Source: a virus
Length of the DNA: 64,000 nt
Virus record (IMG/VR): IMGVR_UViG_3300032083_002558
Coordinates: 1-64,000 of that record
Strand: one strand, 5' to 3'
In this document: positions 2,716 to 24,959 of the stretch, piece by piece
Numbering within the stretch: position 1 is the first letter of the stretch
Layout of the letters: every line of letters starts with the position of its first letter
Position numbers and translations under genes: made by a program
Notes under the pieces: generated by a model
What the model was told of the DNA's origin: nothing
The model's database searches: none
What the model saw: only the letters and a program-made list of their open reading frames with translations

Positions 2716-3323
2716 TATTTACCTTTTACAAAATCTCCAAGTGCTGGTATATTAACTACACCACCAATATCTGATAATCTTTTTGGTTTTACTGATTCAT
2801 CTTTTTTGATAGCTTTAGATATTGCATCTCTTCTCTTTTTCAAATATTCATCTGAATCATCTACATCACCATCATTATCAACATCTGAATCTTCTTTCCC
2901 TACAGCATCTAATTTTTCTTCCATTTCAGAATCTTCATCATCGTGTCCATAAACATGAGCTTCATCTATTTCATAGTAACGATTCAATACATGTCCCATA
3001 TCTTCATACAATGCAGTCAATCTTTGATTTAAAGCTTGTGCTTCTTTAGCAGTTTTTGTAAATTCTACAACACTACCTTTTAATGATTTCATATTTTTAT
3101 TAATTGAAACTTTATCAAACCAATCATCTTGTTCACCTAAAATGTGATGATGTGCAGATTCTGCAACTTCTGATAATTGTTTTGCAATTTCAACTATGTT
3201 GTTATTATTATACAATTGTTTTCCAACAATACCAAAGTTCTTAACACCCTCAACAACTTTATATTTGTCAATTTGTGGTCTGTCTTCAAACGCTTCTGAT
3301 AATATGTCTTTTAATTTTGCCAT
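2715..3323 (-). CDS. Protein with capsid-targeting-like N-terminus
   Basis: I choose the ATG at 3323 (202 residues): a GGGAG lies eight bases upstream and the protein then begins [13 protein letters not shown], the ten-residue peptide ending L-x-E shared with other genes here. Other starts are an ATG at 3338 that overlaps the previous stop, and a TTG at 3347. The body is helical, with a His-rich 'SAHHHILGE' and a coiled-coil-like stretch. An acidic Asp/Glu linker near residue 135-165 precedes a Lys-rich tail. T4 internal head proteins carry a ten-residue N-terminal targeting peptide removed by gp21 after L/I-x-E, so packaging in the head is inferred. No enzyme motif seen. Confidence 0.7.
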
Positions 3324-3337
3324 TTTTATGTCTCCCA

Positions 3338-3625
3338 TTATTTCCAAAATATTATTTTAGCTATTATACCCAACACTAAAGTGTAAATACCCCATAGTGC
3401 AGTGGTTACATTTTGTTTAAAATTCTTTAATTCTGTTATATCTTGTATATCGATTTGTTTTCTCCAAAAGGTATTTTTATTTACTCTAACAATAATACCA
3501 TCTTCCGGGTCTAATAATACTTCTTTAATTTCTGTTACAGTTTGATGAATTTGTTCTAATTCACCATTCATTAGTTTTGTTTCAACACATTCTAACTTTT
3601 CTATAATATCTTTATTAGTAGCCAT
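3338..3625 (-). CDS. Small coiled-coil membrane protein, XhlA/holin-like layout
   Basis: 95 residues. Residues 5-40 are a charged amphipathic helix ('[20 protein letters not shown]'), then a short '[15 protein letters not shown]' segment, and residues 72-93 form one hydrophobic C-terminal segment ending FWK. A cytoplasmic coiled coil followed by one membrane span is the layout of XhlA-type phage proteins that assist holins, but similar proteins occur in virions. It begins with ATG sharing one base with the stop of the upstream gene. Lysis involvement is only a possibility; no endolysin gene is in the window. Confidence 0.6.
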
Positions 3626-4227
3626 TATCTTTTACTCGCTGTTCTGTTTTTCATTGCTTTTGTACCACCAAAGTATTTTCTAAATCTATCTACTATCTTA
3701 TCTTTAGTTAAAACACTTTGTAAAAATTCTACTTCATATGGATAAGCCCTTGACATATCACCATGTTGAAATCCTCTGACTAAATCAAAGAAATCAATCA
3801 CACCATTTTTTGCCTTTGTCATCCAATCCTTTACCACTTTACCTTGTAGTTTTCTTAATTCTTTTGAATATTTCCTTAAAGCATCATCAACAACCATCTT
3901 TGCTTCTTTTGATGAAAATGGTGGAGGTGATGATACACCACCAAATGATTCACTTAAATCACTATTTAATAAATAATCTCTTGACTTGTTTAAATAATTA
4001 GAAGCCAATGTGATTTTATCTGTCCACCACGCTGGTAAAGAATCCTCTTTATCCATAGATTCTAATTTCTTCAATAATTCTTCAGAGTCTTCAATTGATA
4101 ATTTTAACTTTCTAATAGCAGATGGAACATCAGTATGTCCGTCTTCATTGACTTTAAAAGGTTTTCTGTCTTTATCAGTATAAACCTTACCTTGTTCTAT
4201 ATCTTTTAATAAGTCTTGAAGTTTCAT
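3625..4227 (-). CDS. Conserved-looking phage protein, probable head component
   Basis: 200 residues beginning MKLQDLLKDIEQGKV, related to the targeting-like N termini nearby but without a clean L-x-E site. A 'VYTDKDRKPFKV' segment follows. Then comes a helical region with 'LPAWWTDKI' and 'YLNKSRDYLLN' near 85-115, a pattern I associate with unnamed proteins of marine myoviruses. The C-terminus is basic ('KAMKNRTASKR'). Starts with ATG overlapping the stop of the upstream gene by four bases, indicating coupled translation. Function unknown; the position among prohead genes suggests a virion protein. Confidence 0.65.
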   Translation of the reverse strand: MKLQDLLKDIEQGKVYTDKDRKPFKVNEDGHTDVPSAIRKLKLSIEDSEELLKKLESMDKEDSLPAWWTDKITLASNYLNKSRDYLLNSDLSESFGGVSSPPPFSSKEAKMVVDDALRKYSKELRKLQGKVVKDWMTKAKNGVIDFFDLVRGFQHGDMSRAYPYEVEFLQSVLTKDKIVDRFRKYFGGTKAMKNRTASKR

Positions 4228-4499
4228 CTATCTATTCCAATATATTTTGCTTTGTTTTTATTTAAAAATCTTTCTAAATCTTTTGTTCCTTTTGGATAAT
4301 AATCATTTCTATCACCAATTAAATGAAACTCATTAAATCCATTATCATAAAGTTTAAATTTTTCATTCTTTATTTGAACTACAATTCTTTCTCTTTCATT
4401 CCTTTTTGGTATAGATGATACCTCACCACCTGGCATATTCAAATACTTACCTTTCATTTTAAACTTTCCTTCTGATAATAAGTCTTTTAATTTAATCAT
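4224..4499 (-). CDS. Small protein with capsid-targeting-like N-terminus
   Basis: 91 residues beginning MIKLKDLLSE|GKFKMKG. The first ten residues match the window-wide consensus M-x-K-L-K-x-(L/I)-(L/I)-x-E, and the next residue is Gly, a preferred residue after the cut in T4 gp21 substrates. The remainder is a compact basic domain rich in Lys, Arg and aromatics ('EKFKLYDNGFNEFHLIG'), likely beta-rich. It overlaps the genes on both sides by a few bases. Inferred to be an internal head protein; no known fold recognised. Confidence 0.7.
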   Translation of the reverse strand: MIKLKDLLSEGKFKMKGKYLNMPGGEVSSIPKRNERERIVVQIKNEKFKLYDNGFNEFHLIGDRNDYYPKGTKDLERFLNKNKAKYIGIDR

Positions 4500-4779
4500 T
4501 TTTCATAGCCGTTTTAATCTTTTGTATATCAGCCATAAGTTGTTGTGGTGTCATACCAGCAGCATCAATTACTTTATACAATATAGCAGCTCTTTTCATT
4601 CTATTCAAGTTTGCACCTTTCATAGATTGAACAAATTTATCTAAGAATCTATTTACAACTGATGGTAATTTGATTTTATCAAAATTAATTTCATTAAGGT
4701 TTTCTTCCTTAATCATACCAGTTTCTTTACGAATCTCTTGATTTTGTTTTTTAATTAAATCTTTCATATTAATCATCAT
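4492..4779 (-). CDS. Small helical protein, putative internal head protein
   Basis: 95 residues. It begins MMINMKDLIKKQNQEI and contains 'ENLNEI' near residue 28, an L-x-E site that would remove a longer N-terminal piece if cut. The rest is mostly helical and basic, with 'NRFLDKFVQSMKGANLNRMKR' and a C-terminal 'DIQKIKTAMKND'. Close spacing to its neighbours (overlap of 8 bases downstream, 6-base gap upstream) puts it in the same transcript. Function unknown. Confidence 0.65.
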   Translation of the reverse strand: MMINMKDLIKKQNQEIRKETGMIKEENLNEINFDKIKLPSVVNRFLDKFVQSMKGANLNRMKRAAILYKVIDAAGMTPQQLMADIQKIKTAMKND

Positions 4780-4785
4780 ATACTC

Positions 4786-5715
4786 CTATTTTACAACTGC
4801 CCATAATGTGTTCATTAATTGCGTTGGACTTTTATATCCTATATCTGATAATATTTTTTTCATTTTAGGATTTACTTTTTTAAATACTTTTGTTAATAGA
4901 TTAGCTGTTTGCATATCTACTGTTACTAATCCTTTTTTAGTGTTGTAACCATATGCTTGTTTATCTTTCATAACTCTAGCAGCAACATCAAATATTGTTT
5001 CTTTTGCTTCTGTAAGTTTTCCTTCAAGTTTAATTGCTTTAGCTTCTGGACTATTATATTTACCACTCTTTTTTAATTTTTTCACTAACATTTTAGCAGC
5101 TCTTTCGTTTTTAACTACTTTAATAGTTTCACGGCCACCATCTGTCACTACCCACATACCTTGTTTAGCCATTCTTTGAACTGCAGCTGATTGTTTTTCT
5201 TTGAGTTTCTTTTTAATCAAATGAGGACCTGCTGGTTCTTCACCTAATTCACCATTCTCACCATATCCACAAGTTCCTTCACCCAATATATCTTTAGCTT
5301 TATCTGATAAATATTTTATATCTGCACTTGCTATTTGTTTTAAAACTTTCTTATCTGTTTTTTTCAATAATGTCACAATCTGTTGAACAAGTGGATTGTT
5401 ATCAGGTAAAGTTCCTTTCATATCCTTAAATGCTCTTTTTAATTGTTTGATGTGTGATGAACTAAATGGTATTCTTACTTCATTCATGTTAGCCAACTCT
5501 TCACGAACCATTTTCTTAATCAAGTTTCTAACTTTCATTTCTCTTTTCACCTTGTTTGGTAATCCTTTGTGTTTTGTTTTTGCATATTTATCAACATCTT
5601 TTTTCTTCATTGACTTAGCAACTTTTCCAGCTTCACCCTCTTTAGGTTTATCACCTTTTTGCATTGACTTTACAACACCAAAAAATCTTTGTTGAGCTTT
5701 TGATGATGCTGGCAT
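4786..5715 (-). CDS. DUF3008-type modular protein with internal cleavage-like sites
   Basis: 309 residues. The N-terminus (1-55, 'MPASSKAQQRFFGVVKSMQ...') matches the DUF3008 pattern of small basic proteins. Next comes 'VRNLIKKMVREELANMNEV', a helical motif of the IIxEE...L-x-E kind. Three more sites follow: 'DILGEGTCG', 'GELGEEPAG' and 'GKLTEAKET'. These separate a helical middle, a basic 'GMWVVTDGGRETIKVVKNERAAK' segment and a C-terminal domain of about 70 residues. If the prohead protease cuts at these L-x-E positions, the product is a polyprotein of small packaged pieces (inference). Start ATG overlaps the upstream stop by one base. No catalytic motif seen. Confidence 0.7.
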   Translation of the reverse strand: MPASSKAQQRFFGVVKSMQKGDKPKEGEAGKVAKSMKKKDVDKYAKTKHKGLPNKVKREMKVRNLIKKMVREELANMNEVRIPFSSSHIKQLKRAFKDMKGTLPDNNPLVQQIVTLLKKTDKKVLKQIASADIKYLSDKAKDILGEGTCGYGENGELGEEPAGPHLIKKKLKEKQSAAVQRMAKQGMWVVTDGGRETIKVVKNERAAKMLVKKLKKSGKYNSPEAKAIKLEGKLTEAKETIFDVAARVMKDKQAYGYNTKKGLVTVDMQTANLLTKVFKKVNPKMKKILSDIGYKSPTQLMNTLWAVVK

Positions 5716-6032
5716 TACATTAACTTTCTAAAATTCTTTTTATATTTTTTTGTGAAATCAACTATATTCTTTTTATAATTATCTAAAAAGTCAGCAGCTT
5801 CATCATTTAATCCTTTTTTTCTTAAACTATCATATAAATCCAAATAAGACTTTTGTAATCCTTTTAAAGACTTATCTATATTTTTAGCGTGTTTTTTATA
5901 TTCGAAAGCAGGGCCTTCATTTATATTAAACTCATCTTTGATAGATTCCAATACTTTATTCTGTTTAGGTTTGGATTCTTTTTTCTTCTTATCATTATAT
6001 CCCATTAAAGATTTATAATCCATTTTACTCAC
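5715..6032 (-). CDS. Small Lys-rich prohead-type protein
   Basis: 105 residues, about a quarter Lys, predicted all-helical. 'FNINEGPAFEYKKHAKNI' near residue 35 contains an I-x-E|G site of the prohead-protease kind. In T4 the gene after protease gene 21 is scaffold gene 22, and this gene occupies that place, overlapping the protease gene by eight bases. It is far shorter than T4 gp22 (about 270 residues), so a scaffold role is only a positional guess. It could be a core protein of the gp67/gp68 type. Confidence 0.6.
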   Translation of the reverse strand: MSKMDYKSLMGYNDKKKKESKPKQNKVLESIKDEFNINEGPAFEYKKHAKNIDKSLKGLQKSYLDLYDSLRKKGLNDEAADFLDNYKKNIVDFTKKYKKNFRKLM

Positions 6033-6648
6033 CCCTAAATATATCGTTAATTATATTTTCAATTTTACAATCGTGACAACACACACCATCTCTTGTTCCA
6101 ACACCTTCGTGTAATTTACCTTCATTTGTTGGTGATAGAAATGCTCCGTGTGTAGATGGATTTGATACGAAATCAAATGCAATAAGTTCAAAGTCTGGTT
6201 GAACCTCTACTGAATCATCTTCATTCATTTCTTTTACTGAACCTAATCCTCTCGATGATATACCTAATTTAATACCACTTTTAAATAATTCTTTTAAGAT
6301 GTTTCCAGCTGGTGTACCAAGTACTTCAACTGTTCCCATTAAATCATTGTCTTTCCAATGCATTTCTAATATATTATGAGAAACATTGTTTAGATTCACC
6401 ACAGACGAGTCAGGATGGTCAAGTTCACCTAATGCTCTTCGTTCTTTAATTTGAATTTTTGAATATTTTTCGGCTTCTCGCATTAAAGTTTCTCGTGGAT
6501 ATACTCTTCCATTTTGATTCTTTGCTTCTGCTCTTTGTAATACACCTTTAACAACCAATCTTCCATCATTGTTTTTCATTGACTCATTGATTTGTTGAGG
6601 GGAAACCTCAAATGGTATATAATCTACTATTACTTGTTTTGACATCAT
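6025..6648 (-). CDS. 21: Prohead core protease, T4 gp21-like
   Basis: 207 residues with the layout of the T4 gp21 family (peptidase family S80, herpesvirus-assemblin-like fold). 'RVYPRETLMREAEKY' near 48-62 is typical. 'ALGELDHPDS' supplies the predicted catalytic His78, and 'KLGISSRGLGSV' the predicted catalytic Ser (131 or 132). It acts in the prohead, cutting core and capsid proteins after (L/I)-x-E. Its own sequence has candidate self-cutting sites at 'INE22|S' and 'LHE181|G'. The tail beyond the second has a 'CCHDC' cluster that may bind metal. A start two codons after an in-frame Met is possible. It ends in an overlap with the next gene. Confident family assignment. Confidence 0.92.
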   Translation of the reverse strand: MMSKQVIVDYIPFEVSPQQINESMKNNDGRLVVKGVLQRAEAKNQNGRVYPRETLMREAEKYSKIQIKERRALGELDHPDSSVVNLNNVSHNILEMHWKDNDLMGTVEVLGTPAGNILKELFKSGIKLGISSRGLGSVKEMNEDDSVEVQPDFELIAFDFVSNPSTHGAFLSPTNEGKLHEGVGTRDGVCCHDCKIENIINDIFRGE

Positions 6649-6654
6649 TGTCTC

Positions 6655-7122
6655 CTATCCTATTACAAATTCTGCAGTTCCTGTTATCTCACCTGCTATT
6701 ACTTGCCAATTGTCACCATCATACATTAAAGTTACACTTCTTCCAGGAAGATTTGATGTTAAGGTATTACCAGCTGCAAAATTAGCTGGTGTGATAACTA
6801 AATCATTACCGCCAAGTCTTGTACTATGTACTATTCTTTTTACTTGTCCTAAAATTCCATTAGCAAGTGATACATGTGTTCTAGAACCAGCAGAAACACA
6901 CAATGATGTTGTAGTCTTTAAAGATAAAGGTACAGCATTATCTGCACCATTACCTCCTAAAACTGGTCCCTCCAAATCTTCACCTGGTGAACCACTGGCG
7001 TTTTGTGAATCAGAAATTCCAGGGTCTAACGCAAATCCCAAAGCCTTTTTCTGTTTTGGTGTTAAACCAGTTCCATAGTCTGATGTTAATATTTGCTTTT
7101 TACCTTGAAATAAAACTCCCAT
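6655..7122 (-). CDS. Virion surface-type protein, copy 1 of a tandem pair
   Basis: 155 residues. The N-terminal 'KQILTSDYGTGLTPKQKKAL' and the second half ('HVSLANGILGQVKRIVHSTR', then 'DLVITPANFAAGNTLTSN', then 'YDGDNWQVIAGEITGTAEFVI') match the next gene closely. The C-terminal half looks like a beta-sandwich. The region near 35-60 is Gly/Asp/Ser-rich. Such small beta proteins beside the prohead protease are often capsid decoration or head-fibre proteins, which is inference. It overlaps its paralogue by one base. Confidence 0.65.
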   Translation of the reverse strand: MGVLFQGKKQILTSDYGTGLTPKQKKALGFALDPGISDSQNASGSPGEDLEGPVLGGNGADNAVPLSLKTTTSLCVSAGSRTHVSLANGILGQVKRIVHSTRLGGNDLVITPANFAAGNTLTSNLPGRSVTLMYDGDNWQVIAGEITGTAEFVIG

Positions 7123-7574
7123 TATGCTATCACCATTTCTGCTGTTCCTGTTATCTCACCAGCAACTACTTGCCAATTTAAACCATCAAATAATAATTGA
7201 ACAGCTCTAGCAGCTGCATTTGAAGTTAAGGTATCACCAGCAGCAAAAATACTATCACCACCAATTCCATCCTCAGGTGTGATAACTAATGCATTACCAC
7301 CCAGTATTGATTTATGTATAATTACTTTTAATTGTCCTTCAACACCCTTACCTAATGTTACATGTGTTGCACTAGCTTTTGTTGATACTAAAGACACTGT
7401 GGTTGTTGATGATAAAACTGTTGCATTACTTGTACCATTACCAGCGATTACAGTTTCAGTACTATAAACAGTCGGTTTTAATACCCAAGCTCTACTGAGT
7501 TTTTGTTTACTAGTTAAACCTGTACCATAACCTGATGTTAGAATCTGTTTATCACCATCTATTATTTTTGGCAT
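7122..7574 (-). CDS. Virion surface-type protein, copy 2 of a tandem pair
   Basis: 150 residues, paralogue of the adjacent gene: 'KQILTSGYGTGLTSKQKLSRA' at the N-terminus, 'HVTLGKGVEGQLKVIIHKS' in the middle, and 'FDGLNWQVVAGEITGTAEMVIA' at the C-terminus. The two differ most in the linker near residues 35-60, as expected for an exposed or adaptive part. Both are likely virion proteins made in similar context, from one ancestral duplication. Exact role (decoration, fibre base) unknown. Confidence 0.65.
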   Translation of the reverse strand: MPKIIDGDKQILTSGYGTGLTSKQKLSRAWVLKPTVYSTETVIAGNGTSNATVLSSTTTVSLVSTKASATHVTLGKGVEGQLKVIIHKSILGGNALVITPEDGIGGDSIFAAGDTLTSNAAARAVQLLFDGLNWQVVAGEITGTAEMVIA

Positions 7575-7584
7575 TTATAAACTC

Positions 7585-8818: not shown

Positions 8819-10603
8819 TTATTCCTCTTCATCTAAAATAATTTCTTCATTTAACATAGATTTATCTAAATCTTTACCAAACTTATCTTTAAGTGAATTT
8901 AATAAACCTTCTCTTGCAACAATCGTTCCACCTTTTGATGTAGCCAATGGAGAACCACCTTTAAACTCTCGTTTTCCATATCGTTCTGTTTTGTGTTTTG
9001 TTGCATCTTTTATATCTTTGGCTGAGTATTCATTACCAAATTCTTTCTTACCAGTTCCACTTCGTCTATCCCCACCATGTTCACCACTCTGTTCTTCCAT
9101 ATCATCAGTTGGTTCTGTTCCTTCATCGGCTGGGTCTGTTCCCTCAGTTTCAATTTGTTCCATTCTAAATTGTTGTTTTCTATCTTCAATCACACCATTG
9201 AATACATCAACTTTTTCTTCATCATTTAACTCAAAAATATTATCATATATCCATTGCCTTGAAAATAATTTGTTTTCAATCAAGTCATTAGCAATATCTT
9301 TTTTCTGTGTTAATAATTCTAATTTCTCTTGTTGATGTATCATTGATGGATTTGTTAACTCTAATTCAAAATTAATCAACTCAGCATCATCAAACCCTTG
9401 TGTGTATAAGTGAACAATAGCAATCTTTTCTAATTCAGCTACAATAATTTTTTGTAGTCTTTCAATTGTTCTTGCGAATCTAACATCTTCAGCTGCTAAT
9501 GTAGCTTTTGAACCTACATTCTCATCATATCCCAAAAATGCTTTAGGAACTTTAAGAGCTGCCATCATTTTATTTTTTAAATACTCTACATCTTCAATTG
9601 CACCATCATTACCCAAACCTGGTAAAGTATCAATTTGAGTTCCACTATCACCACCACGAACAGGTAAGTAATAATCTTCTGTTACGGATTCCATATTGTA
9701 TTTTAAATTATATTCACCATTTGCATTCATCACAGGTGTCTTTTTCATTTTACCAATAATTTGTTGCATAAAGTTATCTACTTCATTTGGAGGTATATTA
9801 CCAATGTCAACTTTGAATACTCTTTTCTCTGGTGCTCTCATCATACGATGAATCAACATAGCGTCTTCCATAAGAGTTAATTGTTTAAATACTCTTCTTG
9901 CACCTTCTAACATTGATTTACCATAAGGTAAGTAATTTGTATCTGCAAGATTTCTGAAATGAGCAACTTCATAATTTTCGTGAACATCATTTGGTTTTGA
10001 ACTTCTTGTTGATTCTGAATATTGTTGAATTTCAAATTGAACTAATTTAGGATTACTTGGGTCATGTCCCTCTAATCTATTTACTTCATATACTGAAAGA
10101 GGTTTTACATTAACAACTCCGTGTTTATCCAATATATCTAAATGTAAGTAGAAATCACCATATTTAACCATATTTCTAATATAACTCCATAGATTAAATT
10201 CAATGTTTATTATGTCATAAAATAAGTTATGTAAAATTTTATGGACTTTTGGATTATTAGTTTTAATTTTCATTATTCTGTTTTCAATATTATCAACCGT
10301 AGATTCATCACAATAAATATCCAATGCTGATGATATGATTGGGTCTGCATCCATTAATTCATAATCTCTAAATAATTCTTTTCTAGCTACATCATACGCA
10401 CTTGCATTTTGTTTGGCTTGATATGCTGAATTACCATATCCACTTGAATTAATTCTATTATATCTATCAATAAAATTAGATGTTAGTGCAGTTTGAGAAA
10501 ACTCGACATCCTTGACTTTTACTTGCCCGTCATTTGTTTTTCTAACTACAATTTGATTTTGAAATAATTTTCCTAATTTCTGTAATATATTTTCGTCTGC
10601 CAT
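8819..10603 (-). CDS. 20: Portal vertex protein, T4 gp20-like
   Basis: 594 residues, close to the length of T4 gp20 (about 520) with an added acidic C-terminal tail. Diagnostic segments include 'RKELFRDYELMDADPIISSA' and 'ALDIYCDESTVDN' in the N-terminal third. 'RAPEKRVFKVDIGNIPPNE' and 'LGYDENVGSKATLAAEDVRF' lie in the crown/stem region. The portal is a dodecamer at the head vertex through which DNA is packaged and ejected. The tail after residue 485 is Glu/Asp/Gly-rich and ends 'SMLNEEIILDEEE', with an L-x-E site that could be trimmed by the protease. It follows the terminase gene by ten bases, matching the T4 17-20-21 order with genes 18 and 19 missing between. Confidence 0.9.
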   Translation of the reverse strand: MADENILQKLGKLFQNQIVVRKTNDGQVKVKDVEFSQTALTSNFIDRYNRINSSGYGNSAYQAKQNASAYDVARKELFRDYELMDADPIISSALDIYCDESTVDNIENRIMKIKTNNPKVHKILHNLFYDIINIEFNLWSYIRNMVKYGDFYLHLDILDKHGVVNVKPLSVYEVNRLEGHDPSNPKLVQFEIQQYSESTRSSKPNDVHENYEVAHFRNLADTNYLPYGKSMLEGARRVFKQLTLMEDAMLIHRMMRAPEKRVFKVDIGNIPPNEVDNFMQQIIGKMKKTPVMNANGEYNLKYNMESVTEDYYLPVRGGDSGTQIDTLPGLGNDGAIEDVEYLKNKMMAALKVPKAFLGYDENVGSKATLAAEDVRFARTIERLQKIIVAELEKIAIVHLYTQGFDDAELINFELELTNPSMIHQQEKLELLTQKKDIANDLIENKLFSRQWIYDNIFELNDEEKVDVFNGVIEDRKQQFRMEQIETEGTDPADEGTEPTDDMEEQSGEHGGDRRSGTGKKEFGNEYSAKDIKDATKHKTERYGKREFKGGSPLATSKGGTIVAREGLLNSLKDKFGKDLDKSMLNEEIILDEEE

Positions 10604-14078: not shown

Positions 14079-17000
14079 CTAAAAATAAATTAAACCTGTA
14101 ATTTGATTGATTGGAGCAAATGCACCTGTGAATTTATATGTTTTTCCTTTATATTTAAACACTATTCCTTCACTTGGAACGATAGCATCCACACCACCAA
14201 TCTTGTTTAATTTATCTAATTGTAATTTTAATGTATTTAATTTATTCTTATTACCACTAGCTTTTACATTCTCTATTGATGTTTTTAATTTTTTTCTAAT
14301 ACTTTGAACTGATTTATCTGGATTAGCAGCCATAAATCCTTTTACATTCTTTAATATTTCCGCTCCAACTCCAAAGAACAATTCTTCAAATGGTTTCATA
14401 TTTTCTTTAACCATTTTTGCGTGATTTTCTTTATCAGTCTTCAATACCCATTCTAAAAATTCAGATTCATCTTTTAATTCTTTTCTTATTGTAGGTATCT
14501 TATATGACTTATCAAAGAAAGCCCATCGTTTAGTTAGATTTTCTAAAATATCGTCTGTAATATCATAGTTAAATTGTTGTGCTGCATTATAAATATATTC
14601 TTCCCAATATGATTGATGATATAAACCTAATGTATCATTATCTTTTAATCCATATTGATTTCTTAATTTATTCAATTCACCAATAAATTTAGATTTCATT
14701 GTTCCAAAGTCTTGATGTTTTGGTACATCTAAAAATACAGGTTTTCCTATCTTGTATTTCTTTTGAATGTTTTGGTTTCTTTGTTTAATCATACCAGCCA
14801 ATACTCTTCCACTTCCTTTTACTTCACCTTTTACATTTCCTTTGTCGTCATAAACCAATGCTCCGTGAAATACCAATTCAGCTTTATCATAATTAACTAC
14901 ATTTTCTGATTTAGGCCACATTACCTCTAAATTCATAAAGTTATATCCATTGTTGAATATCTTTTCTTTTTGTTTGTCTGATAATGATTTGATAGCTTTT
15001 TCTAAATCTTTCATAGCAAATACAAAAGCATCTTTTATATCACCTCTACCTTTGAATTTACTTATGATACCTTTTGTATCCAATGCAGTTTTTCCACCAT
15101 TCTTAATGTGTCCTTTATTTCTAGCTGCAATAAGTTTTCCGTCTTTCCAACTTATCATAATGTTTTGTCCATCTAATTTCTCTGTAACTCCATCTTCACG
15201 ACTTAATGTTCCACCTAATCCATTTTCTATAATTTTTTTTAAATCACCAAAAGTTAAATCCTTATCATCAAATGGATGTGCCATATGTCCGTAAGCTCCA
15301 CCTTCATTCAATAATTCTTTTTTCCACCAATCTTTTGTAAATACATTTTCTTCAACTTCTTCTTTTTCTTGTTGTTTAATTGTATCCACAGTATCTTTAG
15401 CAATTTGTTTTTTTATATCTTTATCTTGTTTAGTGAATTTCATCAATTCATAACCAACCTCTTCGGCTTTTGTTTTCATCGCTCTAAACCATTTATTGTA
15501 ACCTTTTACTCCTGTTAGGTTTTCTTGGTTGTTTGGTGTAACTCCTGTTCCTATTCCGGCTGGTAAATACGATACAGAATTATGAGGACCAATTGGCCAA
15601 CCATCTAACATTTCATATTCACTTGGTGGTAAGTCATCTGAATTGTTTTGTAATATATAATTAATTACAGTCCAACCAAGTTTTTCTGCTTCTTGATTAC
15701 CTCTACCTTTATAATGTTCTGCATTTTTAAACATTAAACTTGGACCTGAATCCACACCTTGAATACCTCCAGCATTTGCGGTGTTTGAAACTTCTAATAA
15801 TTTACTCATATCAGTATGAATTAAAAACTCATCTATTTCTTTTGATTTTTCAATTCTAAATTTAAGAGCTGGTCTTCCATTGATTAATAAATCACCTTTT
15901 TCATTCCAATCCATTGTTTTAATAACAACCTTTTTGTTTTTGAATTTACCCATTCTAACCGTATCACCTATGTTGATTGGTAATTTAATGTCTTCACTCA
16001 ATTGATTTCTTAATTTTTCTATTTCTTTTTGTATCTTTTTTTGATTTGGTGAACCTGGCATTTGTTTGAAAGCTTTAGAATATAATTTACTTATTTGTAA
16101 TTTTAATGCTCTATCCTTTTTACTACCTTTTTTAAACCAATCTTCATTTATGTCTTCTGTAGCTAATCTTATCAACTGAGATAACATTTGTGGATTTGAT
16201 GTTAAGTATTTTACTAATTGGTTTTTGTTAGTTAATAACTTATTAGGTATTTTTAATTTTTTAATAGCTTTTTTAAAATCAACGTCATGTAATAAATCTC
16301 TATCCTCACCATCAAAGTGTTTTTTGTTTTTTGGTTTTTCTTTTGTATTATCCCAAGTAACGACATCATTTTCTTTTACAGGTTCCCAACCTCTTTTGAT
16401 TTTATCTTTTTTTCTTTTTTGGACACCTGCTTTAGAATCACTACTATCATCAAAGTCATATGTTTCAGGTTCTGCCTCCAACCCATCAATGTGTGGACCA
16501 CTATGATATTGATGATGTTTAAGAAATTGTTTAAATTTTTTCTTATCTGTTGGGCTACTTATTTTCATTTTTTTATATTTATCTGTAACTTTGTTTGGTA
16601 ATGATTCATTCATTTCAAATAATTTTTTAAATTTATTCACCATCATTTGAAACACACCATCGTTAAAGTAACCAAACATCTTCTTAAATAACTTAGCTCT
16701 TTGTTTATCATCAAACTTATCTGAACCCAATAATTCTCTCATTGTAGTTCCACTAACTTCTTTACCACCTACTGATATTGAAACATGTGGTGCAACTAAA
16801 TAATATCCATTTTCACCATAACCTTTTAAATTTTTTTTGTTTTTTAAATAATCTTGGAAATACTTTCCACCACCTCCTAATCTACCTGCATCTTTAGCAC
16901 CGAATACATAAACGAATGCTGTTGTTTTTTTATCATATTTCTTTTCTAAATTTTTTGCAACATAAGGTGATTTTTCTTCTATGATGTATTTTGACTTAAC

Positions 17001-17234
17001 ACCCATTTTAGACATATGTCTGACTTTTTCTTTAAAGTTCATTGGGTGTCTTGGTGGTTTCTTTATATTGGATGTTGTGATGTATGCTTCATCAACTTTG
17101 GATTGTAACCATTTATATGTTTTTAAATGATGAGGGCCGAATGGTTGAAATCTACCACCGTATATACCAATGACTTTTTTTATTCCATTGGCTTCTAAAA
17201 TTGGTTTTATTATTTCTTCTACAAGTCTATTCAC
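14079..17234 (-). CDS. Nucleotidyltransferase-ligase polyprotein
   Basis: 1051 residues, GTG start with GAGGA five bases upstream. Residues 20-200 form a nucleotidyltransferase of the NadM/cytidylyltransferase superfamily: 'GGRFQPFGPHH' (26-36, the phosphate-binding motif) and 'VSGTTMRELL' (160-169). A Lys-rich linker follows, then a region with a small 'GDTVRMGKFKNKKVVI' beta domain near 423. Residues 650-1051 resemble an ATP-dependent RNA/DNA ligase: motif I 'TEKLDGQNI' (Lys686), 'NLEVMWP' near 768, 'SEGIVFKY' at 1021 and 'YKFTG' at 1033. L/I-x-E sites occur at residue 14 (|Ala), 364, 414, 481 and 644 (|Gly, directly before the ligase). The protein may be packaged and cut into separate enzymes (inference). 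Substrates unknown. Confidence 0.8.
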   Translation of the reverse strand: MNRLVEEIIKPILEANGIKKVIGIYGGRFQPFGPHHLKTYKWLQSKVDEAYITTSNIKKPPRHPMNFKEKVRHMSKMGVKSKYIIEEKSPYVAKNLEKKYDKKTTAFVYVFGAKDAGRLGGGGKYFQDYLKNKKNLKGYGENGYYLVAPHVSISVGGKEVSGTTMRELLGSDKFDDKQRAKLFKKMFGYFNDGVFQMMVNKFKKLFEMNESLPNKVTDKYKKMKISSPTDKKKFKQFLKHHQYHSGPHIDGLEAEPETYDFDDSSDSKAGVQKRKKDKIKRGWEPVKENDVVTWDNTKEKPKNKKHFDGEDRDLLHDVDFKKAIKKLKIPNKLLTNKNQLVKYLTSNPQMLSQLIRLATEDINEDWFKKGSKKDRALKLQISKLYSKAFKQMPGSPNQKKIQKEIEKLRNQLSEDIKLPINIGDTVRMGKFKNKKVVIKTMDWNEKGDLLINGRPALKFRIEKSKEIDEFLIHTDMSKLLEVSNTANAGGIQGVDSGPSLMFKNAEHYKGRGNQEAEKLGWTVINYILQNNSDDLPPSEYEMLDGWPIGPHNSVSYLPAGIGTGVTPNNQENLTGVKGYNKWFRAMKTKAEEVGYELMKFTKQDKDIKKQIAKDTVDTIKQQEKEEVEENVFTKDWWKKELLNEGGAYGHMAHPFDDKDLTFGDLKKIIENGLGGTLSREDGVTEKLDGQNIMISWKDGKLIAARNKGHIKNGGKTALDTKGIISKFKGRGDIKDAFVFAMKDLEKAIKSLSDKQKEKIFNNGYNFMNLEVMWPKSENVVNYDKAELVFHGALVYDDKGNVKGEVKGSGRVLAGMIKQRNQNIQKKYKIGKPVFLDVPKHQDFGTMKSKFIGELNKLRNQYGLKDNDTLGLYHQSYWEEYIYNAAQQFNYDITDDILENLTKRWAFFDKSYKIPTIRKELKDESEFLEWVLKTDKENHAKMVKENMKPFEELFFGVGAEILKNVKGFMAANPDKSVQSIRKKLKTSIENVKASGNKNKLNTLKLQLDKLNKIGGVDAIVPSEGIVFKYKGKTYKFTGAFAPINQITGLIYF

Positions 17235-17278: not shown

Positions 17279-17285
17279 GCTTTAT

Positions 17286-17546
17286 TTACATAACATTTTT
17301 GTTAAACCAAGCTTTTAATTTAGTGCTTAATTCATATGAATCGTCATCATTAAGTTTTCTTGATTCTTTTCTCAATAAACCAATTATTTTAGTAAAAGCT
17401 CTATCGGCTTTTCCTTCTGTAATTTTTTCTTCTGCTTTAACACAATTACGATATGTTTTACCAAACATTTTTTTTGTTTTACGAGTTGGATGTGTCTTAT
17501 ATCCTTTTTGACACTTTTCTGATATTAAGTCTTTTAATTTTACCAT
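17286..17546 (-). CDS. Small basic protein with capsid-targeting-like N-terminus
   Basis: I prefer ATG 17546 (86 residues) to the TTG at 17561. It then starts MVKLKDLISE|KCQKG, one of the ten-residue peptides ending L/I-x-E. The body has 'YKTHPTRKTKKMFGKTYRNC', a basic segment I associate with unnamed phage proteins, then a second site 'KITEGKADRAF' (I-T-E|G) and a helical C-terminus. The gene overlaps the upstream gene by seven bases. Expected to be packaged in the head and trimmed twice, leaving small basic peptides (inference). Confidence 0.7.
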   Translation of the reverse strand: MVKLKDLISEKCQKGYKTHPTRKTKKMFGKTYRNCVKAEEKITEGKADRAFTKIIGLLRKESRKLNDDDSYELSTKLKAWFNKNVM

Positions 17547-18658
17547 GTTCGACACGCCCAATATCTAGCTTTATATTTTGGTCCTGGATTATCACAATTA
17601 TGTCTTGCTCTAAATGATTTTCTAGCTCCAGGATTTGATTTTCTGATTCTCATCGTTCCACCTTTAGCATCACCACCTTGTCCAAAATGAACAACTACTG
17701 TATTACCTTTATCATTCTTTACATAAACTTTAAACTTTTTCTTATCACCTTGCATGATTTTATTTAATTTAACTTTTCTACCTTGATATTCTGCTTCTTG
17801 TAAATCCTCACCATTAAATTCAAAGGTATATCCATATCCTTTACCATTTACTTCATAGTAAACTTCTTTTACACAATTAGGCACCATCTTGTCACCTTTT
17901 TTCTTCATACCAAGTTGTTTATATCCAACCCAACAAGTTCCTCGTTTTTCTTCAATTGATTCTTTTTTAGATTTATTGCCCCAATTCTTAGCACCTACTT
18001 TTCTACATTTAACCAAAGCACCACTCGCATAAGCAGAAGGCCATACATCATATCTTGCTTTTACTTTATGATAACAAGCATCTTTCTTTTCTGATAATAC
18101 TTCACAATACTCTTCAAGAATAATTTCTGTTAATTTTTCTTTGGATATATCCATTACACTCTCCGATTTTTTCTTTTTACCAGCACAGTGTGCTTTTTGA
18201 CTGAATCCTTTTGGATTACTACAATCTATTGACTTTTTATATTTTTGACTCCAACCTTCATTTTTCTTTTTAGTAATCTTTTTCATCTTATTTATATAAG
18301 CTCTATAAACACCAGCTTGAGATGTTTTACCCATCTCTTTTGCTCTTTGTTCCATAGCTACAGCTGCTTGTATTTTGTGAGCGTGTGATTTACCACTTCC
18401 GTTTATTTTACTCACACTAGCTTTCGCATCTTTTACCGTTGCAAACTTTAATCCTTTAATAGTTCCCTTTGGGTTCTCATCCGTGTATAAATCCGAATGT
18501 TTCTTTGAACCTGCTGGTTGTCCTTTTTTTCTTGGTACTCTTGGATTCTTTTTTTCACCCATTTTAATTTGTCCTAAAGGCCTTGGCCCACATCTCTTTC
18601 TATATTGTGCATCACTTTCACCTGACTTCTTTCTTCTTGGATTACAATTCTTAGGCAC
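17540..18658 (-). CDS. Modular basic protein with conserved viral-type domains
   Basis: 372 residues, strongly basic, with several short modules. They are an Arg/Lys-Pro N-terminus ('NCNPRRKKSGESDAQYRKRC'), 'SGKSHAHKIQAAVAMEQRAK' near 90, and 'IDCSNPKGFSQKAHCAGKKK' near 145. A linker 'KLTEIILEEYCEVLSEKKD' (170-190) has L-x-E sites. Then comes 'ARYDVWPSAYASGALVKCRK', a DUF5872-like segment, and a C-terminal domain ending 'RARHNCDNPGPKYKARYWAC'. Eight or more Cys recur in C-x-N or K-C patterns. These modules recur in unnamed proteins of marine phages and large viruses. Likely packaged and cleaved; biochemical function unknown. Confidence 0.65.
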   Translation of the reverse strand: MPKNCNPRRKKSGESDAQYRKRCGPRPLGQIKMGEKKNPRVPRKKGQPAGSKKHSDLYTDENPKGTIKGLKFATVKDAKASVSKINGSGKSHAHKIQAAVAMEQRAKEMGKTSQAGVYRAYINKMKKITKKKNEGWSQKYKKSIDCSNPKGFSQKAHCAGKKKKSESVMDISKEKLTEIILEEYCEVLSEKKDACYHKVKARYDVWPSAYASGALVKCRKVGAKNWGNKSKKESIEEKRGTCWVGYKQLGMKKKGDKMVPNCVKEVYYEVNGKGYGYTFEFNGEDLQEAEYQGRKVKLNKIMQGDKKKFKVYVKNDKGNTVVVHFGQGGDAKGGTMRIRKSNPGARKSFRARHNCDNPGPKYKARYWACRTW

Positions 18659-19367
18659 CTGTTTTCACCTTAGTGGTTTTTTGTCCTTTACTTTTTTCAC
18701 CACCTTTTTTAGAATCACCTGCTTTTTTCTGTGCAGCTCTTTTTCTATTAACAAAAGCCGCTATACCTTTCTTTCCAAGTTTTGCTGCTTTGTTAGCAGA
18801 TAAACATGCAGCATATGCATCACCTTTTTTACCACCACCACATTTACCAAGTTTTTTACCTGTTGAACTATATCTATCCCAACCACCAGCAGTAGTTCCA
18901 CCAGCTCCACCTTTTTTAAACCATTGACTTAAATTTTCATTAGTGACTTCAGGTTGTTGAGCTCTATCAATAATCACATTAACATGTAGTTGAATGAAGT
19001 GTGTATCTTCCTCTTCTTCACCGTGTCCAGTTATTTCTGCAATTCTACCTAATTGAAAAGAAATCGTATTACACAATTTAACGGCGTGGTCGATTGGGTC
19101 GTGGTTTAATGGTTCTTGAGCAACAACTTGTTTTTCCATTTCAAACAAGTGGTCGAAATCTTTAGCTGATTGAATAACTAATTCTTTAGCATCTTCATTT
19201 TGTTTTAATTTTTCATAAAGAGTTACAGCAGATTTACAAATATCAAAGTGTTTGGTTTGATAACCAAATATATCAATGTTTTCACCACCACCAAAATGTT
19301 CAGGTGCATTTTCTGGATATTTGTTTTCTTGTTCTTGTTCAACTAATAATGTTTTTAATTTAATCAT
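18651..19367 (-). CDS. Protein with capsid-targeting-like N-terminus and basic C-terminal domain
   Basis: I choose ATG 19367 (238 residues): GGGA lies six bases upstream and the protein begins MIKLKTLLVE|QEQ. A longer frame to 19412 exists, but it is occupied by the overlapping cysteine-rich peptide gene. Residues 15-150 are an acidic helical domain ('CKSAVTLYEKLKQNEDAKEL', 'EEEEDTHFIQLHVNVII'). Residues 160-215 form a Gly/Lys-rich module ('SQWFKKGGAGGTTAGGWDRY', 'KCGGGKKGDAYAACLSANKA') of a type seen in unnamed viral proteins (DUF6321-like). The tail is a Lys/Gly stretch. Probably a packaged protein; function unknown. Confidence 0.68.
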   Translation of the reverse strand: MIKLKTLLVEQEQENKYPENAPEHFGGGENIDIFGYQTKHFDICKSAVTLYEKLKQNEDAKELVIQSAKDFDHLFEMEKQVVAQEPLNHDPIDHAVKLCNTISFQLGRIAEITGHGEEEEDTHFIQLHVNVIIDRAQQPEVTNENLSQWFKKGGAGGTTAGGWDRYSSTGKKLGKCGGGKKGDAYAACLSANKAAKLGKKGIAAFVNRKRAAQKKAGDSKKGGEKSKGQKTTKVKTGA

Positions 19368-19645: not shown

Positions 19646-19654
19646 ATGAGTCGC

Positions 19655-19762
19655 TCAGTTATGGGCAACTTCTTTGTTTTTCTTTATGATTTGAGGATGA
19701 GCATCAGTTTCAGCAAGTACTTCTTTGATGATTTCTCTCAATGATTCTTTTGTTAGTTTCAT
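19655..19762 (-). CDS. 35-residue peptide of the LREIIKE type
   Basis: ATG 19762 overlaps the TGA of the exported gene upstream (ATGA), with GGAG eight bases before it. The product begins MKLTKESLREIIKEVLAETD and ends KNKEVAHN. Residues 1-18 form an amphipathic helix with the LRxIIKExLxE pattern seen at the start or inside other proteins here, ending in an L-x-E|T site. It may be a stand-alone targeting peptide, or the remnant of an N-terminus once joined to the downstream 73-residue protein; no single-base shift was identified that would join them. Confidence 0.6.
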   Translation of the reverse strand: MKLTKESLREIIKEVLAETDAHPQIIKKNKEVAHN

Positions 19763-20522: not shown

Positions 20523-20523
20523 A

Positions 20524-21510
20524 CTATTGTCCTATTGGAATCCTATTGAAGATTCTTCGTTCAGTTCTTCCCATAACATCACAATCACCATTGTCATTGT
20601 TAAACTCATCACAATTGAAATAAATATCATTTCCATTATAAGAATACGAACCATCATCACAGAAACCATCACCTAACCAACCTTCAGGTGCACATATGTT
20701 ATTACAATCTTCAATCAAACCAGGTGAACATTCACCAGGTATAACTTCACAATCACCTTCATCAAAGTTTAGTTCTTCACACCATAAATTAATTGGAGTT
20801 ACATATTGTCCACAATCATCACCACCATTGTATAAACAATCTTGGTACATATTAAAAGCTTCTTCACTTGGGTAAATTGCATATGCTCCATCATCACAAT
20901 AACTATCACCTATCCAAGAAACAGGTGCACAATTTCCATCACAATCTAACATCATTTCACCATAATTTAATGAATACCATTCAGTATTACAATCATTAAA
21001 TTCACAATTACCATCATCTACATTTGCATTCATATCATAATTTATAGCGTCATCATTCATACAACCATAAACTATATCATTTAATTCAATACTAAATGAA
21101 AAATCTAATCTATTTGGTCTTGTGTTTGTTATTTCTAAATAATAAATTCCCTCTGTTACAATACCAACCTCAACACCATTTCCATTTGTTGCAAAAGAAT
21201 ACAAAGGTGGTGGAGCTCCTAACTCACCATCACATGCTTCAAATAAAGCACAATGAAAACCAGCTTGGTTTAAATTTATTGTGAATAAAGTGGTTTCACT
21301 TAAATCAAAAGCTAACCAAGTTGTAGCTCCACCCTCAAGTGATGCTTCAAACTCCACACTATTCCAATCATACAAATTAGATGCTTCACAACCAACCAAT
21401 ACAGGTTCGTCATCATTACCACCATCATCAGGTGATGTTGGACTTGAACCATCACAACTGAATGTGAATAGTAACATAAAACTCATTAGATACATTAATA
21501 ATTTATTCAT
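20524..21510 (-). CDS. Lipoprotein with Notch-like calcium-binding-type repeats
   Basis: 328 residues with a lipoprotein signal ending 'LLFTFSC' (Cys19 would be lipidated), then a Ser/Asp/Pro linker. Residues 40-150 look like a beta domain ('WLAFDLSETTLFTINLN', 'GIYYLEITNTRPNRLDFSFS'). Next is 'GCMNDDAINYDMNANVDDGN', a motif of secreted proteins in marine bacteria. Two Asp/Cys-rich repeats follow: 'CDGNCAPVSWIGDSYCDDG' and 'CNNICAPEGWLGDGFCDDG', each later closed by a GDC, resembling Lin12/Notch repeats that bind calcium. Its place is the cell envelope. It may have been acquired from a host gene (inference); role unknown, perhaps surface binding or exclusion. Confidence 0.75.
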   Translation of the reverse strand: MNKLLMYLMSFMLLFTFSCDGSSPTSPDDGGNDDEPVLVGCEASNLYDWNSVEFEASLEGGATTWLAFDLSETTLFTINLNQAGFHCALFEACDGELGAPPPLYSFATNGNGVEVGIVTEGIYYLEITNTRPNRLDFSFSIELNDIVYGCMNDDAINYDMNANVDDGNCEFNDCNTEWYSLNYGEMMLDCDGNCAPVSWIGDSYCDDGAYAIYPSEEAFNMYQDCLYNGGDDCGQYVTPINLWCEELNFDEGDCEVIPGECSPGLIEDCNNICAPEGWLGDGFCDDGSYSYNGNDIYFNCDEFNNDNGDCDVMGRTERRIFNRIPIGQ

Positions 21511-21521
21511 TTCATTTCCTC

Positions 21522-21899
21522 CTAAAACTTATTTCCAAGTATTTCCTCAACTACTTCGTCAAGTTCATCTGTTGTTGTTTTCAAAGTGAAACTCATATCA
21601 CCTTGAAGTCTTTTAACTTCTTCCCCATCATCAAAAAAGATAATCGTTGGAAGTATCACTACATTATTATCAGCTTGAATATTTGGAAAATTATCAATAT
21701 TCACTCGATACACTTTTGCATCAAATGAATCCCATTCATCAATTGCTGTAACTTTATTCACTTCATTCCATCCAGCCCAAAACTCAACAGCCACTAAACC
21801 TCTATTGGTTGCTTTATTGAAATTCTCATCTGTTAATTCTCTTACACCACCGAAAAGGGATGTAATCATTAAACATAGTATAAATATTTTCTTAAACAT
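21522..21899 (-). CDS. Exported thioredoxin-fold protein lacking the active-site cysteines
   Basis: 125 residues: signal peptide (1-18), then a thioredoxin fold. 'LVAVEFWAGWNEVNKV' (35-50) aligns with the active-site region of thioredoxin, but the W-C-G-P-C motif is W-N-E-V-N, both Cys replaced by Asn. The conserved cis-Pro is kept in 'VILPTIIFFDDGEEV' (Pro84). The protein thus has the fold but cannot do dithiol chemistry. A binding or scaffold role in the periplasm is inferred. It lies between the MshEN-like and lipoprotein genes, spaced 9 and 11 bases. Confidence 0.75.
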   Translation of the reverse strand: MFKKIFILCLMITSLFGGVRELTDENFNKATNRGLVAVEFWAGWNEVNKVTAIDEWDSFDAKVYRVNIDNFPNIQADNNVVILPTIIFFDDGEEVKRLQGDMSFTLKTTTDELDEVVEEILGNKF

Positions 21900-21908
21900 A
21901 ACCTTCTC

Positions 21909-22586: not shown

Positions 22587-22595
22587 TCATAACTC

Positions 22596-23684: not shown

Positions 23685-23695
23685 TTACTTTTCTC

Positions 23696-24112
23696 CTACT
23701 GTATTTTATTCTCGTGTTTATTTACTACTCTTGTTAATTCTGTTAATAAATCAACACAAGAAGTATCCACTTTATATTTTGACAAGTCCAAAAGTGGTAA
23801 AGGTTTTTCTATTTTAATGTCTTTCAGTTTGTCATTCTGAATCACTAATTTACTTCCACCTACGATAATACCATCCACTACATCATAAGTAAAGAATGTT
23901 GTAGACCAGATTCCTACTCTGACTATTCTGCCAGGTTTACCATCTACTTCTACTACATCGTCTTCGTTGTAATCATTACCCTGAAATATCATAAATCCAG
24001 CTACAAGTTTTTCAATTGTAGACCTGAAGAGTAATGTTAAAATACCAACTATAAATAACCACCCGTATTCACCGAGAATTAATGAAACCTGATTTTGGAT
24101 TTCATTTTCCAT
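23696..24112 (-). CDS. MscS-like channel fragment
   Basis: 138 residues. Residues 15-43 are hydrophobic with Gly and Ala ('YGWLFIVGILTLLFRSTIEK', 'LVAGFMIFQ'), matching the pore helix of small mechanosensitive channels. Residues 46-95 match the MscS beta domain: 'DVVEVDGKPGRIVRVG' and 'DGIIVGGSKLVIQNDKL' (compare D-x-V-x-V-x-G-x-x-G and I-P-N). Full MscS is about 280 residues with three spans and a large C-terminal cage; this version keeps only the last span and beta domain. It might form a minimal channel or poison a host channel (inference). First gene of the envelope cluster. Confidence 0.7.
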   Translation of the reverse strand: MENEIQNQVSLILGEYGWLFIVGILTLLFRSTIEKLVAGFMIFQGNDYNEDDVVEVDGKPGRIVRVGIWSTTFFTYDVVDGIIVGGSKLVIQNDKLKDIKIEKPLPLLDLSKYKVDTSCVDLLTELTRVVNKHENKIQ

Positions 24113-24167
24113 ATCAGTTCTCCAATTATTGGTTATATGTTAGTGTAACCTACTTATTATCAAAAAT

Positions 24168-24959
24168 CTATTTGTATCCTATACCTTTACTTCTTTTTTT
24201 ATTACCTTTTAAAATCAAATTATGTTTAACCCACATTTTACCTATCACATTTCTTATAGGTTTCTTTATAAATTTATCTATATATTTTTTTGTCAATTTT
24301 CCAAACTTAGCTTGAGCTTCTTTTGGTTTTAAAAACTTTGAATTATCAACAATTACAAAATTACTACCAAACAAAGATTGAAATGCACCTAAGTTCTTTT
24401 GAACATCTTTCCACGATTGAACCAATATGTCTTCTGGTAATCTTCTTGCTCTTTCTTGATTTCTTTGTTTAGCAACTTCTAATGATGTATTAACAAATAC
24501 CATATATGTATCATATCCAAGTTTTTCTAATTGTTTTTTTTCAGCTTTTATCTTTCCAAGATTATGACCTGTTCCATCAATAATCATTCCAAGTCTACCT
24601 TCCATATATTTATTTTTTCTATCTCGTGTCATTAACTTGGCTTTTTTTCTAACTGTCATATTTTCTGAATCTTCATCCCCACCAGCAATAGCATCAAACA
24701 CTTCTTCTGGCCATTTATCAATATCTAATTTACCTGTACCGAATGTTTCAAATCCATATTTTTTTAATAAAAATTCAAACTCTGTATCTGAATTAACTGC
24801 TTTCAATCCACTAACCGATACATTGATTTTTTTAGGAATACCAAACAATTCACCAGCAACATAAGATTTACCAGAACCTGGCCCTCCAGCCATAAAAACG
24901 GCTTTCAATATACCTTTGTCAAAGACTCCCTCTTCCAATAATTGTTTTAATTTAACCAA
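24168..24959 (-). CDS. P-loop kinase with capsid-targeting-like N-terminus
   Basis: 263 residues. The start is TTG 24959, with AGGAG seven bases before it. The first ten residues are MVKLKQLLEE|GVF, the shared targeting-like peptide. The enzyme follows: Walker A 'GGPGSGKS' (25-32), an Asp-containing 'IIDGTGHN' strand (126-133), and an Arg-rich lid ('KQRNQERARRLPED', 164-177). This arrangement belongs to zeta-toxin/polynucleotide-kinase-like P-loop kinases; substrate (nucleic acid end, sugar nucleotide or other) cannot be told. The C-terminus is very basic ('ILKGNKKRSKGIGYK'), as for a nucleic-acid-binding protein. Preceded by copy B of the 18-bp motif. Confidence 0.75.
   Translation of the reverse strand: MVKLKQLLEEGVFDKGILKAVFMAGGPGSGKSYVAGELFGIPKKINVSVSGLKAVNSDTEFEFLLKKYGFETFGTGKLDIDKWPEEVFDAIAGGDEDSENMTVRKKAKLMTRDRKNKYMEGRLGMIIDGTGHNLGKIKAEKKQLEKLGYDTYMVFVNTSLEVAKQRNQERARRLPEDILVQSWKDVQKNLGAFQSLFGSNFVIVDNSKFLKPKEAQAKFGKLTKKYIDKFIKKPIRNVIGKMWVKHNLILKGNKKRSKGIGYK

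Follow-up and report, generated by a model that had tools for sequence, protein, structure and literature searches.

A ten-residue N-terminal peptide on unrelated proteins of an uncultured T4-like virus: a probable capsid-targeting sequence

Introduction

Why should genes for unrelated proteins begin with the same ten residues? The question is raised by a 64,000-base stretch of viral DNA (hereafter the window), which comprises positions 1–64000 of the 67,902-base linear IMG/VR fragment IMGVR_UViG_3300032083_002558. Five of its minus-strand genes open with M-x-K-L-K-x-[LI]-[LI]-x-E, and we refer to this peptide as the tag. The first-pass annotation had likened it to the capsid-targeting sequence (CTS) of phage T4, which is ten residues long, with targeting governed by residues 4 and 7 and processing by residues 8 and 10; the T4 prohead protease gp21 cleaves after L/I-x-E (PMC9026906). 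Here we weigh that proposal. Our best explanation, to which we give a probability of about 0.85, is that the tag is a lineage-specific T4-type capsid-targeting propeptide, and that tagged proteins are packaged into the head, cut and delivered with the DNA.

The window has a G+C content of 31%, and its T4-type terminase, portal and prohead protease genes all lie on the minus strand (coordinates of all features are collected in Table 1). The capsid gene of this phage is off the contig.

The tag on five window genes

The five tagged genes start at 3323, 4499, 17546 and 19367 with ATG and at 24959 with TTG. As had been described, Glu is exactly residue 10 in each and is followed by A, G, K, Q and G, respectively. 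Given the amino acid frequencies of the window itself, a start would match the motif with p = 1.1e-7, so that about 6e-6 tagged starts are expected in 60 genes. A looser form of the pattern occurs away from gene starts only twice in the 20,780 residues of the window, and one of these two occurrences is the 19367 tag itself, read within a longer open frame. The proteins behind the tag do differ, since no pair of the five matches by BLASTP. Shine–Dalgarno-like sites precede starts 3323 (GGGAG) and 19367 (AAGGG), for which good ribosome sites had been claimed, as well as 24959 (AGGAG). The site at 17546 is weak, and 4499 has none, yet its homologues in relatives share this initiating Met.

Homologues of individual tagged proteins keep the peptide. 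Orthologues of the 202-residue protein retain K3, K5 and L8 in 13 of 13 cases, with L4 and E10 each kept in 12, and the relatives of the 86-residue protein at two loci (L044 and L048) carry MIKLKELISE/KCWKGYEKKGTKKMFGKTYPNCVKKE (the slash marks a predicted cut throughout). A sixth, degenerate leader at 4227 was absent from the first-pass list of five; proteins similar to the one it heads begin with MIKLKSLLKE (L057), MKKLKDLLNE (L059) and MIKLKDILNE (L061). The pattern that we built for the family of window 4492–4779 returned no matches.

The tag in related viruses

We then took 80 IMG/VR contigs that were chosen solely by the presence of a relative of the window protease. These hold 62 open reading frames (ORFs) that begin with the tag, of which 62 are on the protease strand and 0 on the other. 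When starts were selected as M-x-K-L-K-x-[LI]-[LI]-x, regardless of residue 10, Glu10 was present in 51 of 54, and two of the other three carry Glu one residue later. A strict nucleotide pattern for MIKLKDLLxE found at least 120 stretches in IMG/VR, nearly all of them gene starts, while a scrambled peptide of the same composition (MILKKLDLxE) had 0 matches there and, without its x-E requirement, 22. Together with the probability of about 1e-7 per start, the absence of scrambled matches rules out a chance origin of the tag. Bacterial and archaeal contigs amounting to 257 Gb gave 13 matches to the tag pattern, mostly not gene starts, one of which precedes the same cargo as a viral match over the residues displayed.

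Tagged contigs are enriched in T4-type head genes. Among those longer than 40 kb, 16 of 30 have a Peptidase_S77 gene, compared with 1 of 10 control contigs carrying the scrambled tag (Fisher p = 0.018). A T4-type head gene (protease, capsid or portal) is present in 20 of 30 against 1 of 10 (Fisher p = 0.0024). For this count, capsid and portal were sought in the contigs without S77, and the comparison leans slightly towards the tag because the controls entered the portal search only. As most contigs are fragments, the test is limited and the counts are lower bounds.

The first-pass annotation had suggested looking in related phages for unrelated cargo behind the same N-terminal peptide, and such cargo is abundant: 217 distinct tagged proteins, pooled from these searches, form 91 BLASTP clusters when compared without the tag. 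Positions 3, 4, 5, 7, 8 and 10 are nearly fixed in the pool and conservation ends at residue 11; as the motif was the criterion for inclusion, only this break is informative. Residue 8 is L or I, as in the gp21 motif L/I-x-E. Several of these proteins look, by eye, like NUDIX, HAD and ADP-ribosyltransferase (ART) enzymes. Judged from these genomes, a large uncultured, mostly marine group of T4-like viruses puts one ten-residue label on dozens of unrelated proteins.

The break at residue 11 also bears on the proposal that the tagged proteins are old paralogues, one ancestral gene having duplicated and diverged until only its N-terminus could be recognised. We find this barely credible. Some phages do have several members of one cargo family, but conservation is lost sharply rather than gradually, the 91 clusters include a P-loop kinase and NUDIX-like and HAD-like sequences, and one and the same kinase follows seven or more different leaders or is embedded in a larger protein. 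We rejected common ancestry of the cargo on the basis of the 91 unrelated clusters.

Codon use speaks to a further possibility, namely that the conserved entity is the mRNA: recombination would have spread a mobile 5' cassette, or an A-rich stretch at the initiation site, and selection would act on translation. The Leu and Ile codons of the tag are indeed somewhat richer in A (TTA 0.70 vs 0.51; ATA 0.81 vs 0.45), as is usual near starts, and the tag may well spread by recombination at the 5' ends of genes. Against this, Glu codons are at background (GAA 0.84 vs 0.84) and Lys codons near it (AAA 0.82 vs 0.76), and 104 tag peptides are encoded by 200 distinct DNA versions; therefore it is the peptide, not the DNA, that is conserved. 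The hydrophobic positions interchange (L/I/M/F), upstream ribosome sites vary, and the scrambled peptide of equal composition is missing. We consider selection on the mRNA very improbable, and the near-background Glu and Lys codons and the 200 DNA versions led us to reject it as the main cause.

The predicted cut site

The gp21-like protease that had been assigned at 6025–6648 is a clear Peptidase_S77 match (E 3e-28), scoring 99 bits against a PF03420 cut-off of 27. The conserved His and Ser motifs, GE[LM]DHP and [IVL]S[ST]RG, are kept in 80 of 80 protease relatives. The end of the tag, L/I-x-E, agrees with the specificity of T4 gp21. It also has the same shape as the predicted cut in the major capsid protein of relatives (QLIDE/AS, QLISE/NS, ELIKE/AS, QLINE/FT and QLITE/NS), a site predicted by position only.

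The T4 CTS, carried by IPI, IPII, IPIII and Alt and processed by gp21, resembles the tag in being ten residues long, with a Met start, hydrophobic residues 7 and 8, a variable residue and Glu10. Like the tag, it is modular and occurs on divergent proteins in a genome with a gp21-type protease of L/I-x-E specificity. The two are not alike letter by letter: the tag reads M-I-K-L-K-D-L-L-x-E, and only Met1, the hydrophobic residues 7 and 8 and Glu10 are common to it and MKTYQEFIAE. The T4 sequence is approached much more closely by MKSYKQFLSE and MKKFSAFLNE of cyanophages. The tag clade further differs from T4 in its many more, and more enzymatic, cargoes, in a second, longer class of leader, and in internal junctions within multi-enzyme proteins. 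Apart from its letters, the tag resembles a T4 CTS in every respect that we assessed computationally.

The kinase junction

Among the cargoes, the kinase behind start 24959 gives the clearest case of a putative protease site. Its AlphaFold model has a mean predicted local distance difference test (pLDDT) score of 81, and a Foldseek search of the PDB with this model placed bacterial polynucleotide kinases (PNKs) first (E 2e-7), with T4 PNK also listed; Pfam prefers Zeta_toxin, and a phmmer search of the PDB with the kinase sequence gave no match. A scan of viral contigs with the single protein returned two loci only, and the homologues used here were found by pattern in loci collected for other reasons. 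They start G-[VIL]-x-D-x-x-I-[FL]-K-A, and a hydrophobic-x-E sequence lies directly before that Gly in 21 of 21 informative homologues (18 junctions identified by script and 3 by eye after offset correction; one more homologue ended at a contig edge).

What precedes the junction varies. Leaders at the start of the protein include MVKLKQLLEE, MIKLVDLLNE, MIKLQNIIE and MVHLKQILLE, as well as MIPFILKE in HTVC008M and MKTFAELQE in Melnitz. Elsewhere the kinase lies inside a larger protein with unrelated sequence upstream, ending TSEVTE in Atu_ph07, SIRE in L272 and KVTE in L287.

The ligase-like junction

Internal L/I-x-E junctions, likewise absent from the first-pass list, are present in several window proteins. 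One of these is the 1051-residue multi-module protein, for which an L/I-x-E end had been noted after residue 14; we found this leader as described, reading VNRLVEEIIKPILE/ANG. Its C-terminal RNA-ligase-like domain is weakly assigned: PF09414 falls below its cut-off in six of nine members, and T4 Rnl2 gave the top Foldseek matches, which were not significant and came from a poor model (pLDDT 68, nine sequences).

The residues directly before the Gly-Gly that opens this domain were compared in 79 sequences, the window included, and take two forms: L-[LI]-x-E in 53 and LLLM in 26. An in-frame Shine–Dalgarno-like AAGG[AG] lies just upstream of the ATG in 26 of 26 LLLM forms, compared with 1 of 53 Glu forms. 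The 26 LLLM loci lie among L226–L289, whereas the window (15302) has the L-x-E form, and the sequence further upstream is unrelated between groups. Cutting and internal initiation would each yield a separate ligase-like protein that starts at the same glycine. This exchange of Glu for a start codon would be difficult to account for if the domain did not function as a separate protein.

These junctions help to judge whether the tag might instead be an uncleaved docking helix, retained by the mature protein and serving to attach it to a late structure such as scaffold or portal. The tag is basic and amphipathic (K-L-K-x-L-L), as a docking helix might be. However, Glu10 is as fixed as the Lys and Leu positions despite its place at the end of the peptide, the x-x-E ending recurs at internal domain junctions, where a start codon can replace it at the same residue, and the tag end matches the predicted capsid-protein cut. 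Docking alone is disfavoured because it predicts neither the fixed Glu10, nor the junction swaps, nor the capsid-cut match, and we regard it as improbable.

Longer leaders and other features of the window

A second class of leader is longer, MKLTKSKLKEIIREE(LLNE/IQKLNE; the slash here separates alternatives), and occurs on many different small proteins. It heads 51 ORFs in the protease-selected relatives and was seen in L069, L072, L075 and L077, with about seven each in L072 and L075. The L/I-x-E end that had been claimed in a 35-residue peptide of the window belongs to this class (MKLTKESLREIIKEVLAE/T). A further leader, at 1387 and of the MKLTK class, was absent from the first-pass list.

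Table 1. Positions of the tag, longer leaders, candidate junctions and associated genes in the window.
Feature	Position	Strand	Remarks
Leader of 202-residue protein (2715–3323)	3294..3323	-	Predicted cut before Ala11
Leader MIKLKDLLSE of 91-residue protein (4224–4499)	4470..4499	-	Similar tagged proteins in L008, L012, L038, L173
Leader MVKLKDLISE of 86-residue Cys-containing basic protein (17286–17546)	17517..17546	-	
Leader MIKLKTLLVE of 238-residue protein (18651–19367)	19338..19367	-	
Leader (M)VKLKQLLEE of PNK/zeta-like kinase	24930..24959	-	TTG start; G at residue 11
P-loop polynucleotide-kinase-like cargo	24168..24929	-	Predicted mature N-terminus GVFDKGILK; Pfam Zeta_toxin/AAA_33
Degenerate leader MKLQDLLKDIE of 200-residue protein (3625–4227)	4195..4227	-	
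gp21-type prohead protease (Peptidase_S77)	6025..6648	-	Pfam PF03420; PHROG head maturation protease
T4-type portal (gp20)	8819..10603	-	Pfam Portal_T4, E 2e-72
DUF3008-containing 309-residue protein near protease	4786..5715	-	N-terminal DUF3008 part homologous to S-SCSM1 ORF93 (56%, E 1e-16)
1051-residue multi-module protein	14079..17234	-	Leader, cytidylyltransferase-like domain, DIKLPINIGDTVR-initial module, RNA-ligase-like domain
Leader of 1051-residue protein	17193..17234	-	Relatives: MNKLVEEIIKPILE, MSLKKLIEEITKPVIDE
Internal junction LLNE/GGAYGHM before ligase-like domain	15303..15314	-	Predicted cut
RNA-ligase-like domain, KLDG motif	14082..15302	-	Weak family match
372-residue mosaic protein	17540..18658	-	Candidate junctions VLSE/KKDACYHKVKARY and DLQE/AEYQGRK
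Second-class leader in 35-residue ORF	19709..19762	-	Then T
Second-class (MKLTK class) leader VKIKKSQLKELIRQAIVE	1334..1387	-	Then D; ORF runs off contig
Internal second-class motif REQIREIIKEQLNE, then AITG	248..289	-	Same ORF as leader 1334..1387; candidate cut site

Modules of the 372-residue mosaic protein occur in 391 phage records, and one of them has 93% identity over 45 residues with a cyanophage protein annotated as structural. A 42-residue module of the same protein (KKDACYHKVKARYDVWPSAYAS...) recurs with identities of up to 95% in 365 phage records, mainly of cyanophages, which is unusually high conservation across distant phages.

Other genes in the window were also noted. Beside the protease, 6655–7122 and 7122–7574 are adjacent paralogues of 50% identity, possibly head decoration proteins. 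An ORF at 1362–2402, among the head genes, is ParM/actin-like (a weak match to a PHROG partition family). The ORF at 20524–21510 resembles a secreted lipoprotein and has a GCMNDDAINYDMNANVDDGNCEF segment, of a kind known from marine Bacteroidetes, which may hint at the host.

Virion evidence and known systems

Evidence from virions comes from homologues. Mass spectrometry of purified virions detected the cytidylyltransferase of cyanophage S-SM1 (T4-GC190; PMC3037559) and its S-SCSM1 homologue, named NMNAT (PMC9602691). The former begins MKKFSAFLNE/AERS and the latter MKSFLQFLKE/AAES, so that both leaders have ten residues to the Glu and are close to T4 MKTYQEFIAE; the passages of the two papers that we consulted do not point the leader out. 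These enzymes are of a class related to that in the window, with a ten-residue leader ending F-L-x-E/A, and differ in being encoded by single-enzyme genes with cyanophage-type leaders, where the window has a multi-enzyme protein and a different leader. The tagged 202-residue window protein shares a 48-residue module with S-SCSM1 ORF92 (56%, E 3e-10), and both ORF92 and ORF93, the latter matching the N-terminal DUF3008 part of the 309-residue window protein, were detected by virion mass spectrometry and are labelled virion proteins in the S-SCSM1 record.

Three other systems are partly comparable. In Agrobacterium phage Atu_ph07 (L322), ten consecutive ART-like proteins, gp53–gp62 (39484–49507), have the leader M[RK]W-x-x-L-x-E. 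They are similar to the window in forming a run of proteins with a common short leader ending L-x-E, and unlike it in that their cargo is one paralogous family; the array resembles a battery of Alt-like enzymes. They lie in the block of coding sequences 31–76 of this phage, which contributes 29 proteins detected in virions, a count that applies to the block as a whole and not to gp53–gp62 individually (PMC6102473). In SPN3US, which is related to phiKZ, propeptides of injected head proteins are likewise cut after Glu (by gp245, at A-x-E), but they are mostly long (111–254 residues, with two of 20 and 24), sit on head and ejection proteins, and include no short leader common to many unrelated enzymes. 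The polyvalent proteins of Iyer, Aravind and colleagues also combine several enzymes and are believed to accompany the DNA into the host; in the window, by contrast, prohead-protease-like junctions divide the modules, and the N-terminal tag is common to small cargoes of a single domain. Reviews of T4 regard the CTS as a possible general route by which T4-like phages carry various proteins (PMC9026906). Within the limited paper collection that we searched, we found no description of the present leader and no census of such leaders.

Interpretation

The idea of a set of head-packaged proteins delivered with the DNA, put forward in the first-pass annotation, is thus supported by the fixed Glu10, the unrelated cargo, the agreement with the capsid cut, the T4 head genes and the virion-detected homologues of window modules. 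From these lines we infer packaging, cutting and delivery in the window phage, as well as binding of the tag to the prohead core. In the proposed sequence of events, the basic, amphipathic part of the tag (K-L-K-x-L) would bind the assembling prohead core and tagged proteins would be enclosed as the shell closes. The gp21-like protease would then cut after Glu10, leaving the mature protein inside the head, and this cargo would enter the host together with the DNA. The label would be modular, serving many unrelated cargoes and coexisting with the longer MKLTKSKLKEIIREE...L-N-E class, and the same cut motif would separate the enzymes of large proteins (cytidylyltransferase-like, PNK-like kinase and RNA-ligase-like).

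Several points weigh against a cleaved targeting peptide. The homologues that were detected in virions bear another, cyanophage-type leader or none that is recognisable. The letters of the tag differ from those of the T4 CTS, the residue after the predicted cut is highly varied (K is commonest), and some homologues, such as those of 3625–4227, have a degenerate leader. Moreover, targeting and simple trimming are inseparable by sequence alone.

A closer rival accepts the tag as a packaging and protease signal and places the action of the cargo inside the head, in DNA condensation or core assembly, rather than in the host. It is compatible with our best explanation up to the last step, because only delivery differs. 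Many cargoes are small and basic, and T4 IPIII affects head assembly (PMC9026906). Against it, the cargo includes catalytic families with no evident role in the head (PNK-like kinase, NMNAT/cytidylyltransferase, RNA-ligase-like, NUDIX-like and ART-like), and we consider this rival rather unlikely, though one to be taken seriously.

If the tag is instead a capsid-targeting propeptide whose cargo reaches the host, the enzymes suggest a purpose. HTVC008M encodes the kinase close to a cytidylyltransferase-like protein and to a ligase-like one, which by eye has a KWDGAP motif. It is a reasonable idea that virions might deliver a kit for RNA repair and NAD synthesis. Such enzymes could repair cut RNA and restore NAD, both of which are targets of bacterial defences, before phage genes are expressed.

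With less assurance, we lean towards a wider proposition: that T4-like phages at large use interchangeable, lineage-specific zip codes of 8–18 residues ending hydrophobic-x-Glu as a general delivery system. In the tag clade, virions would carry extensive and rapidly exchanged sets of enzymes (for RNA repair, NAD synthesis, NUDIX and ADP-ribosyltransferase functions, among others), some of them made as protease-split multi-enzyme proteins, with a start codon sometimes replacing the cut site.

Injected protein sets are known for few model phages only. If our reading is true, the set injected by a very common uncultured group could be read directly from sequence, and at least 91 cargo families, most of which lack one, would gain a location and hence a clue to function. 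The tag would also serve as a compact signal with which phage heads could be filled with foreign proteins.

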